Below, piece by piece: positions 9,518 through 13,434 of a stretch of DNA of 14,661 nucleotides; the first letter of the stretch is position 1, and each line of letters begins with the position of its first letter. The notes under the pieces are model-generated. The model had not been told where the DNA came from, did no database searches, and was given only the letters and a program-made list of their open reading frames with translations. Source of the stretch: an uncultured Demequina sp. (lineage in GTDB: Bacteria; Actinomycetota; Actinomycetes; Actinomycetales; Demequinaceae); assembly GCA_937925595.1 (NCBI GenBank), contig CALALQ010000229.1, positions 1 to 14,661 on the forward strand, given 5' to 3'. The position numbers and the translations under genes were made by a program.

Positions 9518-9607
9518 TGGCGGTGACGGTGGGATTTGAACCCACGGTGGAGTTGCCCCCACACACGCTTTCGAGGCGTGCTCCTTAGGCCGCTCGGACA
9601 CGTCACC
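9518..9607 (-). tRNA. tRNA-Ser (anticodon CGA)
   Basis: A class II tRNA of 90 nt with encoded CCA. Acceptor GGTGACG/CGTCACC, anticodon stem CACGC/GCGTG around loop CTCGAAA with CGA at 9573-9571, a long variable arm (GTGGGGGCAACTCCAC), and T arm GTGGG-TTCAAAT-CCCAC; the discriminator is G. It reads UCG. Its last 31 nt differ from tRNA-Ser(GGA) at one base. Confidence 0.97.
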
Positions 9608-9614
9608 GCGGACG

Positions 9615-9620
9615 ACAATA
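9615..9620 (-). promoter_or_regulatory. -10 box of tRNA-Ser(CGA)
   Basis: TATTGT on the minus strand lies 7 nt before the mature 5' end, so the transcript would begin almost at the tRNA itself. A poor -35 (TTGGAG) lies 18 nt further upstream. Confidence 0.45.
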
Positions 9621-9671
9621 CCCGCTCGCAAGGGCCCCCTCCAAACGCGCACCCCCTCACCGACCGCCTGC

Positions 9672-9701
9672 TTACCACTTGGTAGGGAAATGACCTATCA
9701 T
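9672..9701 (+). promoter_or_regulatory. promoter and possible operator of the GH3 gene
   Basis: A -10 TATCAT (9696-9701, one mismatch to TATAAT) is preceded at 18 nt by TTACCA (9672-9677). The inverted repeat TACCA-CT-TGGTA (9673-9684) overlaps the -35, a normal place for a repressor of a sugar-utilisation gene. No regulator gene lies next to it. Confidence 0.55.
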
Positions 9702-9731
9702 GGCGGGAGTCACTCGTCGCAAAGGAGCATC

Positions 9732-11990
9732 ATGTCCACCGAGCCGTACCGCGACCCGTCCCTGCCCGTCGAGGAGCGCGTCGCAGACCTGTTGAGCCGC
9801 ATGACTCTCGAGGAGAAGGCCGGTCAGCTCACGCAGTACTTCCACTTCGGCTCGATGTTCGGTGACGCGCCGCCGGAGGGCGAGCAGATGTTCACGAGCA
9901 TCCGCGTGCCCCAGGTTGTCGAGGCGGAGGTCGCGGCCGGCCGCGCAGGCTCCGTCCTGTTTGTGCGCGACGTCCACAACGCCAACCGCATCCAGCGTCT
10001 CGCCGTCGAGAACACCCGTCTTGGCATTCCGCTGATCTTCGGCTTTGACGTCATCCACGGCATGCGCACGATCTTCCCCGCGCCCATTGGCCTCGCCGCC
10101 ACGTGGGACCCGGAGACCATCGCGGCGGCTCAGGCCGTCGCCGCGCGCGAGGCTCGCGCCCACGGCATCCACTGGACCTTCGCGCCCATGGTCGACATCG
10201 CCCGCGACCCCCGATGGGGCCGCATCTTCGAGGGCTCCGGCGAGGACCCCTACCTCGGCTCGGCGGTCGCGGCAGCACAGGTGCGCGGCTTCCAGGGCGA
10301 CCTTGGCAACGAGAGCATCATCGCCGGCCCCAAGCACTTCGCGGGCTACGGCGCGGCTGTGGGCGGCCGTGACTATGAAGAGGCGGAGATCTCCGACTCC
10401 GAGCTGTGGAACGTCTACCTCCCGCCGTTCAAGGCCGCAATCGACGCGGGCGCCGGCAACATCATGAGCGCCTACATGGAGCTCAATGGCGTCCCCGCCA
10501 CCGGCAACAAGTGGCTCCTCACGGACGTCCTGCGCAAGGCCTGGGGCTTCGACGGCTGGGTCGTCTCCGACGCCAACGCCGTCTTCTCGCTCGAGGCCCA
10601 GCACTTCGCTCGGGGCCAGAAGGACGCCGGCGTGCGCGCGCTCACCGCGGGGCTCGACATGGAGATGACCATGTTCGAGCCCGCGTACAGCCACCTGCCC
10701 GACGCTGTGGCTGAGGGCCGATTGGACGTCGCCGAGATCGACGCTGCAGTGGGGCGCATCCTCACGGCCAAGTTCCGCCTTGGACTGTTCGAGAACCCCT
10801 ACACGGACGAGTCGATCGGGACTGAGGTGCTCGGCGCGCCCCAGCACGGCGAGGTCGCCCGTCGTGCCGCGGAGCACTCCCTCGTGCTGCTCAAGAACGA
10901 CGGCGTGCTGCCCCTGAATCGCACCGCCATCAAGAAGGTGGCCGTCATCGGTCAGCTCGCGGCAAGCAAGCGCGACACTCTCGGCTCGTGGTCCTTCGAC
11001 CACGTGACCGAAGACACGGTGACCGTTCTCGAGGCCCTCAGCCAGGCCGTCGGCCCGGATGTCGAGGTCGCCTTTGCCCCCGGCGCGAGCATCCCCGAGA
11101 AGATCAACAAGTCCTTCTTCGACGCCGACACCAAGCCCGAGGACATGACGCCCGCGGACTACGACGACGAGGCCGAGACCGCCAAGGCCGTCGCGCTCGC
11201 GGCGGAGTCCGACGTCACCGTGGTGGTGGTCGGCGAGCGCGTCACCCAGTCCGGAGAGTTTGCTTCCCGCTCATCGCTTGAGCTGCCCCCGGCGCAGGTC
11301 GCCCAGCTCGAGCAGATCGCCGCGACCGGCACCAAGATCGTGCTGCTCGTCATGAGCGCGCGTCCGCTGGACCTGCGCTGGGCAAGCGAGAACGTCAGCG
11401 CGATCCTCGACATCTGGCACCCCGGCACGCGCGGAGGTGAGGCCGTGGCGTCGGTCCTGCTTGGCGAGGCGAGCCCCGCGGGCCGCCTGCCGTTCTCGTG
11501 GCCGCGCCACGTGGGGCAGCTTCCCATGTACTACTCGCACCTCACGACCTTCCAGCCCGACGGTGCCGCGACGCGCTACTGGGACGACAACACCACACCG
11601 CTGTACCCCTTCGGCTACGGACTGTCGTACGCGACCTTCGAGTACGCGAACGTGCGGCTGTCCCGCGAGTCGATCGCGGTGGGCGAGAAGGTCACGGTGT
11701 CCGTTGACGTCACCAACACCTCGCGCATCGAGGCCGACGAGGTGGTGCAGCTGTACATCCACCAGCGGTTTGGATCCGCGGCGCGTCCCGTGCGCGAGCT
11801 CAAGGGCTTCCGCCGCGTGGAGTTCTCCCCCGGACAGACGCAGACCGTCGAGTTCGAGCTGGGGCCGGAGGAGCTGAAGTACTGGAGCGCCGCGCACCGC
11901 GACTGGGTGCAGGAGGTGTCGGAGTTCGACGTGTGGGTTGGCGGCGACTCGACTGCTTCTCTGGGTACGGTGCTGACCGTCACGGAGTAG
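9732..11990 (+). CDS. glycoside hydrolase family 3 beta-glycosidase (BglX-like)
   Basis: This 752-aa enzyme hydrolyses beta-linked sugars from non-reducing ends. Domains: GH3 N-terminal barrel (~15-330) with DPRWGR, KHFAGYG (201-207) and the nucleophile Asp280 in VVSDANAV; GH3 C-terminal domain (~395-620) with a likely acid/base Glu509 in SGEFASR; and a fibronectin-III-like end domain (~645-740, VDVTNTSRIEADEVVQLYI then RPVRELKGF). There is no signal peptide, so it probably acts in the cytoplasm on imported oligosaccharides, unlike exported BglX. The ATG at 9732 has AAAGGAG 4 nt upstream; an in-frame ATG at 9690 lies in the promoter. It stands alone, with no transporter or regulator beside it. 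Whether it prefers glucosides or xylosides cannot be told. Confidence 0.95.
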   Translation: MSTEPYRDPSLPVEERVADLLSRMTLEEKAGQLTQYFHFGSMFGDAPPEGEQMFTSIRVPQVVEAEVAAGRAGSVLFVRDVHNANRIQRLAVENTRLGIPLIFGFDVIHGMRTIFPAPIGLAATWDPETIAAAQAVAAREARAHGIHWTFAPMVDIARDPRWGRIFEGSGEDPYLGSAVAAAQVRGFQGDLGNESIIAGPKHFAGYGAAVGGRDYEEAEISDSELWNVYLPPFKAAIDAGAGNIMSAYMELNGVPATGNKWLLTDVLRKAWGFDGWVVSDANAVFSLEAQHFARGQKDAGVRALTAGLDMEMTMFEPAYSHLPDAVAEGRLDVAEIDAAVGRILTAKFRLGLFENPYTDESIGTEVLGAPQHGEVARRAAEHSLVLLKNDGVLPLNRTAIKKVAVIGQLAASKRDTLGSWSFDHVTEDTVTVLEALSQAVGPDVEVAFAPGASIPEKINKSFFDADTKPEDMTPADYDDEAETAKAVALAAESDVTVVVVGERVTQSGEFASRSSLELPPAQVAQLEQIAATGTKIVLLVMSARPLDLRWASENVSAILDIWHPGTRGGEAVASVLLGEASPAGRLPFSWPRHVGQLPMYYSHLTTFQPDGAATRYWDDNTTPLYPFGYGLSYATFEYANVRLSRESIAVGEKVTVSVDVTNTSRIEADEVVQLYIHQRFGSAARPVRELKGFRRVEFSPGQTQTVEFELGPEELKYWSAAHRDWVQEVSEFDVWVGGDSTASLGTVLTVTE

Positions 11991-11999
11991 CTGCGCGTT

Positions 12000-12015
12000 C
12001 CCCTCTTGCGAGGGG
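12000..12015 (+). terminator. short hairpin after the GH3 gene
   Basis: CCCCTC-TTGC-GAGGGG forms a 6-bp GC-rich stem with a 4-nt loop 10 bp after the stop codon. No T run follows, so it is a weak terminator or merely an RNA-stabilising hairpin. Confidence 0.45.
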
Positions 12016-12021
12016 GCGCCG

Positions 12022-12045
12022 TAATGGGACATGAGGTCCGGGTTT
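12022..12045 (+). repeat. outer left terminal inverted repeat, 24 bp
   Basis: Starts TAATGGGACATGAGG and continues TCCGGGTTT; identical in inverse to 12256-12279. Confidence 0.9.
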
Positions 12046-12062
12046 CAGCGGTTGCGGCTCCG

Positions 12063-12081
12063 TAATGGGACATGGGGTTCG
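12063..12081 (+). repeat. inner left copy of the terminal repeat
   Basis: TAATGGGACATGGGGTTCG, 41 bp after the outer left copy and in the same direction. It differs from the inner right copy at one base (GGGG for GAGG). Confidence 0.9.
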
Positions 12082-12112
12082 CTCGGGTCCTGCGCGCGCC
12101 CGGTCGAGCACT

Positions 12113-12196
12113 CCGCGCCCACCGGGCCCCGCGCCTCACCGGAACCGCGCCCACCGGGCCCCGCGCCTCACCGGAACCGCGCCCACCGGACCCCGC
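12113..12196. repeat. 32-bp tandem repeat, 2.6 copies
   Basis: Two identical 32-bp units (12113-12144, 12145-12176) beginning CCGCGCCCACCGGGCCCC and ending CTCACCGGAA, then a third unit broken after 20 bases with one substitution (12190). It is almost pure G/C and lies at the centre of the nested-repeat element. Confidence 0.9.
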
Positions 12197-12219
12197 ACTA
12201 GACCCGCGCGGTCTGGCAC

Positions 12220-12238
12220 CGAACCTCATGTCCCATTA
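12220..12238 (-). repeat. inner right copy of the terminal repeat
   Basis: Reads TAATGGGACATGAGGTTCG on the minus strand, 41 bp inside the outer right copy. Confidence 0.9.
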
Positions 12239-12255
12239 AAAGACAAGGATCCCGA

Positions 12256-12279
12256 AAACCCGGACCTCATGTCCCATTA
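12256..12279 (-). repeat. outer right terminal inverted repeat, 24 bp
   Basis: On the minus strand identical over 24 bases to 12022-12045. Confidence 0.9.
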
Positions 12280-12292
12280 GCGCGCCATGGCG

Positions 12293-12745
12293 CTAGCGGC
12301 GCTGCTCGAAGAACTCCCTGAGCACCGCCGCGCACTCCTCTGCTCGCACCCCGGAGATCACCTCCACCTTGGAGCCGATTCGCGCATCCCGCACAACATC
12401 CCACTGCGAGCCCGTCGCGCCCGCCTTCTCATCCCACGCGCCAATCACGAGGCGCGGCACCCGCGCGGCAAGCACCGCGCCGGCACACATAAGGCACGGC
12501 TCAAGCGTCACCACGAGCGTGCAGTCGTCGAGTCTCCAGCGGCCCGACGCTGCGGCGGCTTCGCGCAGCGCGATCACCTCCGCATGGGCGGTGGGATCGT
12601 GGGAGAGTTCGCGCCGATTGTGGCCCTCGCCGATGATCTCGCCTGCGGCGTTGAGCACCACCGCGCCCACCGGCACATCGCCTGCTGCCGCCGCCGCGGA
12701 GGCGAGTTCGAGCGCTCGGCCCATCGCAGCGTCGTACCGGCTCAC
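12293..12745 (-). CDS. tadA: tRNA-specific adenosine deaminase TadA
   Basis: TadA changes A34 to inosine in tRNA-Arg(ACG), needed to read CGN arginine codons. The 150-aa protein has the zinc deaminase motifs H54-A-E56 ([11 protein letters not shown]) and P83-C84-L-M-C87 ([10 protein letters not shown]), with the early PVGAVV and GHNRRE segments of the active site. Length is normal. The GTG at 12745 lies 6 nt after TAGCCT and has no Shine-Dalgarno, so a leaderless message is likely; an ATG 21 nt later also lacks a ribosome site. It is divergent from upp across 53 bp. The related cytosine and guanine deaminases share the fold, but the sequence and length fit TadA best. Confidence 0.92.
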
Positions 12746-12751
12746 GGAACC

Positions 12752-12757
12752 AGGCTA
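12752..12757 (-). promoter_or_regulatory. leaderless-type -10 box for tadA
   Basis: TAGCCT on the minus strand, 6 nt (GGTTCC), then the GTG start. It is part of a 53-bp region with two back-to-back promoters; no -35 is evident. Confidence 0.5.
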
Positions 12758-12786
12758 GCGGGGGCCGCGGGCGCGGTGCGGCGCGG

Positions 12787-12792
12787 TACGTT
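12787..12792 (+). promoter_or_regulatory. leaderless-type -10 box for upp
   Basis: TACGTT, 6 nt (GGGGGC), then the upp ATG. The G run is only one base from the ATG, too close for a ribosome binding site, which favours a leaderless start. Confidence 0.5.
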
Positions 12793-12798
12793 GGGGGC

Positions 12799-13434
12799 AT
12801 GGAGCTGCACGTCGCCGATCACCCTCTCATCCGCCACAAGGTCACGGTGCTCCGTGACAAGAACACCCCGTCGCCCACGTTCCGGCTGCTGGTCGACGAG
12901 CTCGTGACGCTGCTGTCCTATGAGGCGACGCGCAATGTGCGTGTTGAGCAGCGAGAGGTCGAGACCCCACTGACCACGACGGTGGGCACGCAGCTCGCTC
13001 ACCCCGCGCCGCTCATCGTGCCGATTCTGCGCGCCGGCCTGGGAATGCTCGACGGCATGACGCGAGTGCTTCCCATCGCGGAGGTGGGCTTCCTTGGCCT
13101 CATGCGCGATGAGCAGACGCTTGAGACCATCACCTACGCGAACCGCCTCCCGGAGCGACTCGACGGCCGCCAAGTGTTCATCCTGGATCCGATGCTCGCG
13201 ACGGGCGGCTCGCTTGTGTCCGCGATCAACTACGTCCTCGAACGCGGCGCCACTGACGTGACGTGCGTGTGCCTGCTCGCGGCGCCGGAGGGCATCGAGC
13301 ACGTGAAGCAGTCCGTAGGCGAGCGTGCGGACGTCTCCGTGGTTGTCGCGTGCGTCGACGAGAAGCTCAATGAGGTCGGCTACATCGTTCCCGGCCTTGG
13401 GGACGCTGGCGACCGGCTCTACGGGCTCGTCTGA
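12799..13434 (+). CDS. upp: uracil phosphoribosyltransferase
   Basis: This enzyme makes UMP from uracil and PRPP in pyrimidine salvage. At 211 aa it has the usual length. Features: N-terminal [16 protein letters not shown], the [13 protein letters not shown] loop, [13 protein letters not shown], the PRPP site D130-P-M-L-A-T-G-G-S138, and the C-terminal uracil-binding [15 protein letters not shown]. The ATG at 12799 fits the family start and follows a leaderless-type -10 box. It is divergent from tadA and has no obvious permease partner here. Confidence 0.97.

Follow-up and report, generated by a model that had tools for sequence, protein, structure and literature searches.

A 258-bp intergenic element of an uncultured Demequina sp. 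with two sites at each end and an equal 41-bp pitch, possibly a non-autonomous transposon

The whole stretch of DNA that was analysed, hereafter called the window, is 14,661 nucleotides long and represents contig CALALQ010000229.1 of an uncultured Demequina sp. A GH3 beta-glucosidase gene (9690-11990, + strand) and tadA (12293-12745, - strand) form a convergent pair in this window and flank a short element, which is separated from tadA by 13 bp, one outer arm of the element beginning 13 bp past the tadA stop codon. These gene coordinates agree with the preliminary description of this DNA, in which the element was placed in a convergent gap 13 bp from tadA. The other genes of the window are recR, dnaX, the SRP RNA gene, two tRNA-Ser genes, an MFS transporter gene and upp. 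The GH3 gene sits between tRNA-Ser(CGA) and tadA (window 9518-12745). Because tRNA-Ser(CGA) and tadA are often neighbours in actinobacteria, the GH3 gene may itself be a later arrival at the locus too. The GH3 protein has one relative at 99% identity (jgi and ena data) and further ones at 75-84%. Of 7997 relatives scored, those with a name among the best 120 share 62-67% identity with it and come from actinobacteria (e.g. Microbacteriaceae, Agromyces, Cellulomonas), in keeping with an actinobacterial source of the window. No ORF of at least 80 aa lies wholly within the element, and none of the 13 distinct proteins predicted from the ORFs scanned in the window matches a transposase in Pfam, in accordance with the earlier account of a 258-bp element without a transposase. 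The features of the element are as follows.

12022-12279, no strand: whole element, 258 bp, with the outer inverted repeat at both ends
12022-12045, + strand: outer site of the left end, carrying the 24-bp terminal inverted repeat (repeat listing, Markov control)
12046-12062, no strand: 17-bp spacer of the left end, unrelated in sequence to that of the right end (4/17 identical)
12063-12081, + strand: left inner site, at a pitch of 41 from the left outer site (repeat listing)
12113-12196, no strand: G+C-rich 32-bp unit repeated 2.6 times in tandem, filling much of the middle of the element
12220-12238, - strand: right inner site (repeat listing)
12239-12255, no strand: right spacer, 17 bp (compared as reverse complement)
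12256-12279, - strand: outer site of the right end, carrying the 24-bp terminal inverted repeat, at a pitch of 41 from the right inner site

The site is 19 bp long with the consensus TAATGGGACATG(A/G)GGT(C/T)CG, and its four copies in the window start at 12022 and 12063 on the + strand and at 12279 and 12238 on the - strand. The outer copies form a perfect 24-bp inverted repeat and the inner copies a 19-bp pair with one mismatch. The repeat search gives the direct pairs 12015-12040/12056-12081 and 12219-12238/12260-12279, both at a pitch of 41, and the spacers (12046-12062 versus the reverse complement of 12239-12255) agree at only 4 of 17 positions. Thus, the four copies of the core and the 41-bp pitch at both ends over unrelated DNA, as first noticed in the letters of the sequence, are confirmed by sequence and repeat search. 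When up to 2 mismatches are allowed, the 12-base core TAATGGGACATG is found four times in the window, always in the element, as compared with a mean of 0.28 and a maximum of 2 in shuffled sequences (n=200). No perfect inverted repeat of the window whose arms lie within 320 bp of each other is longer than the 24-bp one, and the longest inverted repeat in 60 random windows generated by a first-order Markov model is 16 bp. The four-site arrangement is real and beyond chance. The outer copies differ from the inner copies identically at the left and right ends: site position 17 reads C in the two outer copies but T in the two inner ones, and a GGGTTT tail follows the outer copies only, at both ends. 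The inverted repeat ends in TA, and the 138 bp between the inner copies have a G+C content of 81%. Further copies of the element ends would be recognised by the sequence TAATGGGACATGNGGTNCG. An outward extension of the inverted repeat (12/20 matches, p ~0.009 by shuffling) was set aside, and uptake-sequence-like repeats were dropped as an explanation because the window contains no further copy.

Further copies were searched for in genomes, viral contigs, plasmids and phages. The two-site pattern gives one match only in 84,980 genomes, an unrelated 56-bp tandem duplication in a Desulfatirhabdium MAG (L022), and one match in 2.9 million viral contigs, a phage repeat array (L023); neither is a relative of the element. 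The 19-base site has no match in the viral contigs, and an exact 15-mer of it is found there in 21 stretches, which contain a single site each and were taken as chance matches. Two sites at a pitch of 41 are found in 12 viral stretches with an 8-base core and in 57 with the TGGGACATG core, numbers that are near our uncontrolled estimate of chance matches. The blastn search with the element or its ends against 72,556 plasmids gives chance-level matches only: the whole element matches four plasmid records in its middle alone with E values of 0.07 or more, the end pieces give single matches with E values of 2 and 7, and the left terminal 30 bp give two with E values of 2 and 5. The left end has no blastn match among 50,697 phages. 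When up to 3 mismatches are allowed, 22 plasmid records contain the site at 5 places, as compared with 7 for the reversed control, and TAATGGGACATG with 1 mismatch is found at one place in 6 records. An autonomous partner with the same ends was found neither by the exact two-site patterns nor in the 22 plasmid records. A search of the literature with the letters of the site returned no bacterial transposon among the paper titles, and one on MITEs returned unrelated papers only. The preliminary description proposed to look for the 24-bp repeat elsewhere, together with full elements carrying a transposase gene, and named the lack of any other copy as refuting its reading. No such copy or full element is found in the genome, viral, plasmid and phage searches, but this is a weak negative, because exact patterns were used, the source species is absent from the searched data and the named relatives of the GH3 protein among the best 120 are only 62-67% identical. 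The flanks of the element contain no significant target-site duplication; the best candidate is GCGCC at offsets 1 and 2, and the G+C-rich flanks make such matches easy.

To what extent equal pitch marks a transposon is seen from plasmid DNA. A scan of 1.99 Mb for inverted quartets, with no preset sequence, gives 11 quartets, two of which have equal pitch (L225 and L256). The L225 quartet seems to consist of a stretch of genic sequence present in inverted copies. A larger scan of 3.55 Mb of actinobacterial plasmid DNA (180 stretches, partly overlapping) gives seven quartets with a pitch equal within 1 bp, five of which are ISNCY-type transposons; four of these five lie on plasmids fetched for carrying an ISNCY-type transposase, and the scanned plasmids were all picked for an IS21 or ISNCY match, one for a chance match. 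The other, unbiased 3.05 Mb contains three equal-pitch quartets, one of which is a transposon (L328 left out of inspection), and the transposon reading is thereby weakened. Equal pitch alone is no proof of a transposon and is less diagnostic than at first sight. None of the equal-pitch inverted quartets in the 3.55 Mb is shorter than 600 bp, indicating that the arrangement of the element is not a common sequence accident. A scan with K = 7 and a pitch of 38-44 gives two G+C-rich words at 42/42 (L212 and L239); the reversed controls give 28 and 35 matches, and among the 25 listed of each all but one come from a tandem array in L355. An 85-bp quartet in L184 was rejected for its unequal pitch (39/36) and repetitive sequence.

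The L256 quartet represents a 1.4-kb element (L256:18477-19877), which encodes a 427-aa integrase-core transposase and carries two TGCCTCA...GCCCGCG sites per end at a pitch of 35/35 bp. The relatives of this transposase in alphaproteobacteria are annotated as ISNCY and are 33-35% identical. In seven relatives (L264-L270), from Microbacterium, Paenarthrobacter, Glutamicibacter, Tessaracoccus, Gordonia, Mycolicibacterium and Novosphingobium, 13 of the 14 ends have a pitch of 34-36 bp. The missing end is the left one of the Microbacterium element, which was not found in the stretch examined; an IS256-type insertion has probably removed it. The transposases of this type consist of 412-493 aa. These eight ISNCY-annotated elements are similar in plan to the IS1202 family, whose TIR has its inner part repeated 7-10 bp further in (PMC10132070, in part). 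The 258-bp element resembles the ISNCY-type elements in having two direct sites per end, a near-equal left and right pitch and variable spacers, and shares with them and with IS1202 the second copy of a TIR part at each end. However, its pitch is 41 and not 34-36, its site is TAATGGGACATGAGG and not TGCCTCA...GCCCGCG, and they encode a transposase. It ends in TA and not in TGT/ACA, and with the ISNCY-type site matrix it scores 10.0, as compared with an average of 18.3 for the ISNCY-type sites themselves and 10.3 for the rest of the window, so that no site of the IS1202/ISNCY type is detected in it. The hexamer CCTCAT, common to the element and the ISNCY-type site, was rejected as a link, because its orientation relative to the element is opposite. 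The pitch of end sites can be read off and tells transposon groups apart, being 34-36 bp here and 22-25 bp in IS21-type elements.

The best explanation of the 258-bp stretch is a non-autonomous, MITE-like transposable element that would be served in trans, and we regard the chances for and against it as about evenly divided. Two-site DDE transposons, such as those of the IS21 and ISNCY types, have tandem end sites with characteristic pitches, as does this element. Its spacing is kept (41/41) and its spacer sequence is not (4/17), and its outer arms have the same sequence as its inner arms, which would not be required for pairing in a hairpin alone. An equal pitch across spacers of unrelated sequence is typical of two-site transposon ends, and the argument from spacing is therefore sound. 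MITEs usually show one TIR per end. The element resembles them in being short (258 bp) and gene-less, without a transposase gene, in having a long perfect terminal inverted repeat (24 bp) and in lying between genes, but differs from them in that the inner site is kept as well. The element may move or have moved, and the four sites may bind a transposase. According to the mechanism that we propose, a transposase encoded elsewhere would bind as two protomers per end at the tandem sites, pair the ends and then cut and insert the element. The outer copy would be the cleavage end and the inner copy an architectural site, a division of labour that agrees with the GGGTTT tail and with the C/T difference seen at site position 17. 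A pitch of 41 bp corresponds to about four helical turns and may place both protomers on one face of the helix. Of the earlier suggestion of a non-autonomous transposon with multiple terminal sites, the multiple sites have gained from the two-site ends measured in real transposons, while neither a copy nor a full element has been found. If mobile, the element would be a natural minimal donor of 258 bp with complete two-site ends, suitable for studying how a transposase reads spacing.

The IS21 family offers a narrower form of this reading, in which the element is IS21-derived and served by IstA and IstB. IS21 has two direct repeats per end, and IstA needs both (PMC10122671 and PMC11208146, both in part). 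The inverted repeats of an IS21 element of Leifsonia start with TG (PMC2516522, in part), and ISMyo2, an IS21 element of Mycobacterium yongonense, has three left and two right repeats starting with ATGGGACC (PMC4608216, in part). Our sample of 33 IS21-type loci (31 from actinobacterial plasmids) is non-random, consisting of matches to one IstA query or plasmids carrying its match, and several loci are closely related. Tandem, site-type end repeats are readable in 28 of the 33 loci, and 23 of these 28 have a step of 22-25 bp. The remaining loci have steps of 61 (L083), 43 (L094) and 45 (L033, L034 and L035), and further spacings of 33-34, 46-48, 56, 61, 70 and 95 bp are present in these loci. 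The unusual 43- and 45-bp steps are found at left ends (L094:600-760 and L033-L035:3056-3110), where steps of 33-34 bp and of more than 45 bp occur as well. In L096, three ATGGGACCACC-type sites (steps 34 and 23) lie just upstream of an ORF matching an IS21 transposase model. An orphan end with three ATGGGACCAC sites (L051:1060-1135; steps 34 and 24), beside which no istA is annotated, is present on a plasmid of Candidatus Mycobacterium methanotrophicum, and the L096 end, of related type, is on the same plasmid.

The element shares with IS21 the tandem sites at both ends and, with ISMyo2 and L096 in particular, the core ATGGGAC. The sites before the istA-like ORF of L096, with the orphan end of the same type on the same plasmid, and the left-end steps of 43 and 45, which are near 41, place more weight on an IS21 origin and less on a new group. 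A 5-bp direct repeat is also usual for IS21 (PMC10122671, in part). However, no 41-bp site pair is found in the 33 loci, the 43-45 steps are found at left ends only and the basic step of 22-25 bp is missing in the element. Past ATGGGAC, the sites diverge (ATGAGG versus CACC). The element ends in TA and not in the TG/CA of IS21, no TG being present at matching offsets outside the inverted repeat, and neither of the two genes of IS21, istA and istB, is found among the ORFs of the window that were scanned, although their absence is expected for a derivative. An IS21 origin is therefore rather improbable, and its probability is contained in that of the non-autonomous transposon. None of the transposon ends measured has a symmetric pitch of 41 bp, which speaks against the transposon reading, and the element was filed under neither IS21 nor IS1202, since tests of pitch and termini show no agreement with these families. 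It might be a non-autonomous member of a transposon group not yet described, with a transposase that would join two sites per end across a symmetric 41-bp pitch, in contrast to the 22-25 bp of IS21 and the 34-36 bp of ISNCY-type ends, and with small derivatives keeping a complete two-site end; we suggest this only tentatively. If mobile, the element would point to transposons whose symmetric pitch is unlike that of any end measured.

The main rival of the transposon reading is that the element is a bidirectional terminator or a structured intergenic element of the host, in which two stacked stems stop or stabilise the GH3 and tadA transcripts. This possibility, which we consider unlikely, is consistent with the convergent position of the genes, with the outer arm located 13 bp after the tadA stop codon and with the very stable predicted fold of -174.4 kcal/mol (z = -8.05, 100 shuffles), but any long inverted repeat, a MITE included, yields such a z-score. 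Stems need complementarity only, yet at either end the inner arm repeats the outer one in sequence and in register. In addition, no hairpin followed by a T run is found in 11500-12800, in a search that covers the T-run type only. The four sites may instead be operators or an iteron-like array for a DNA-binding protein of the host or a phage, the symmetry serving looping. Clusters of TGGGACA/TGTCCCA in both orientations do occur between genes in 4 of the 68 viral loci obtained above with the two cores at a pitch of 41 (L023, present in both sets, L111, L133 and L142), but all four are irregularly spaced and were fetched for holding the motif. The sites of the element, furthermore, lie in a convergent gap, and no sigma-70-like promoter is found in 11500-12800 by a search covering the sigma-70 type only. 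An operator function is accordingly very unlikely. The viral clusters are located at L023:175-395, L111:1918-2110, L133:5806-5950 and L142:1920-2210.
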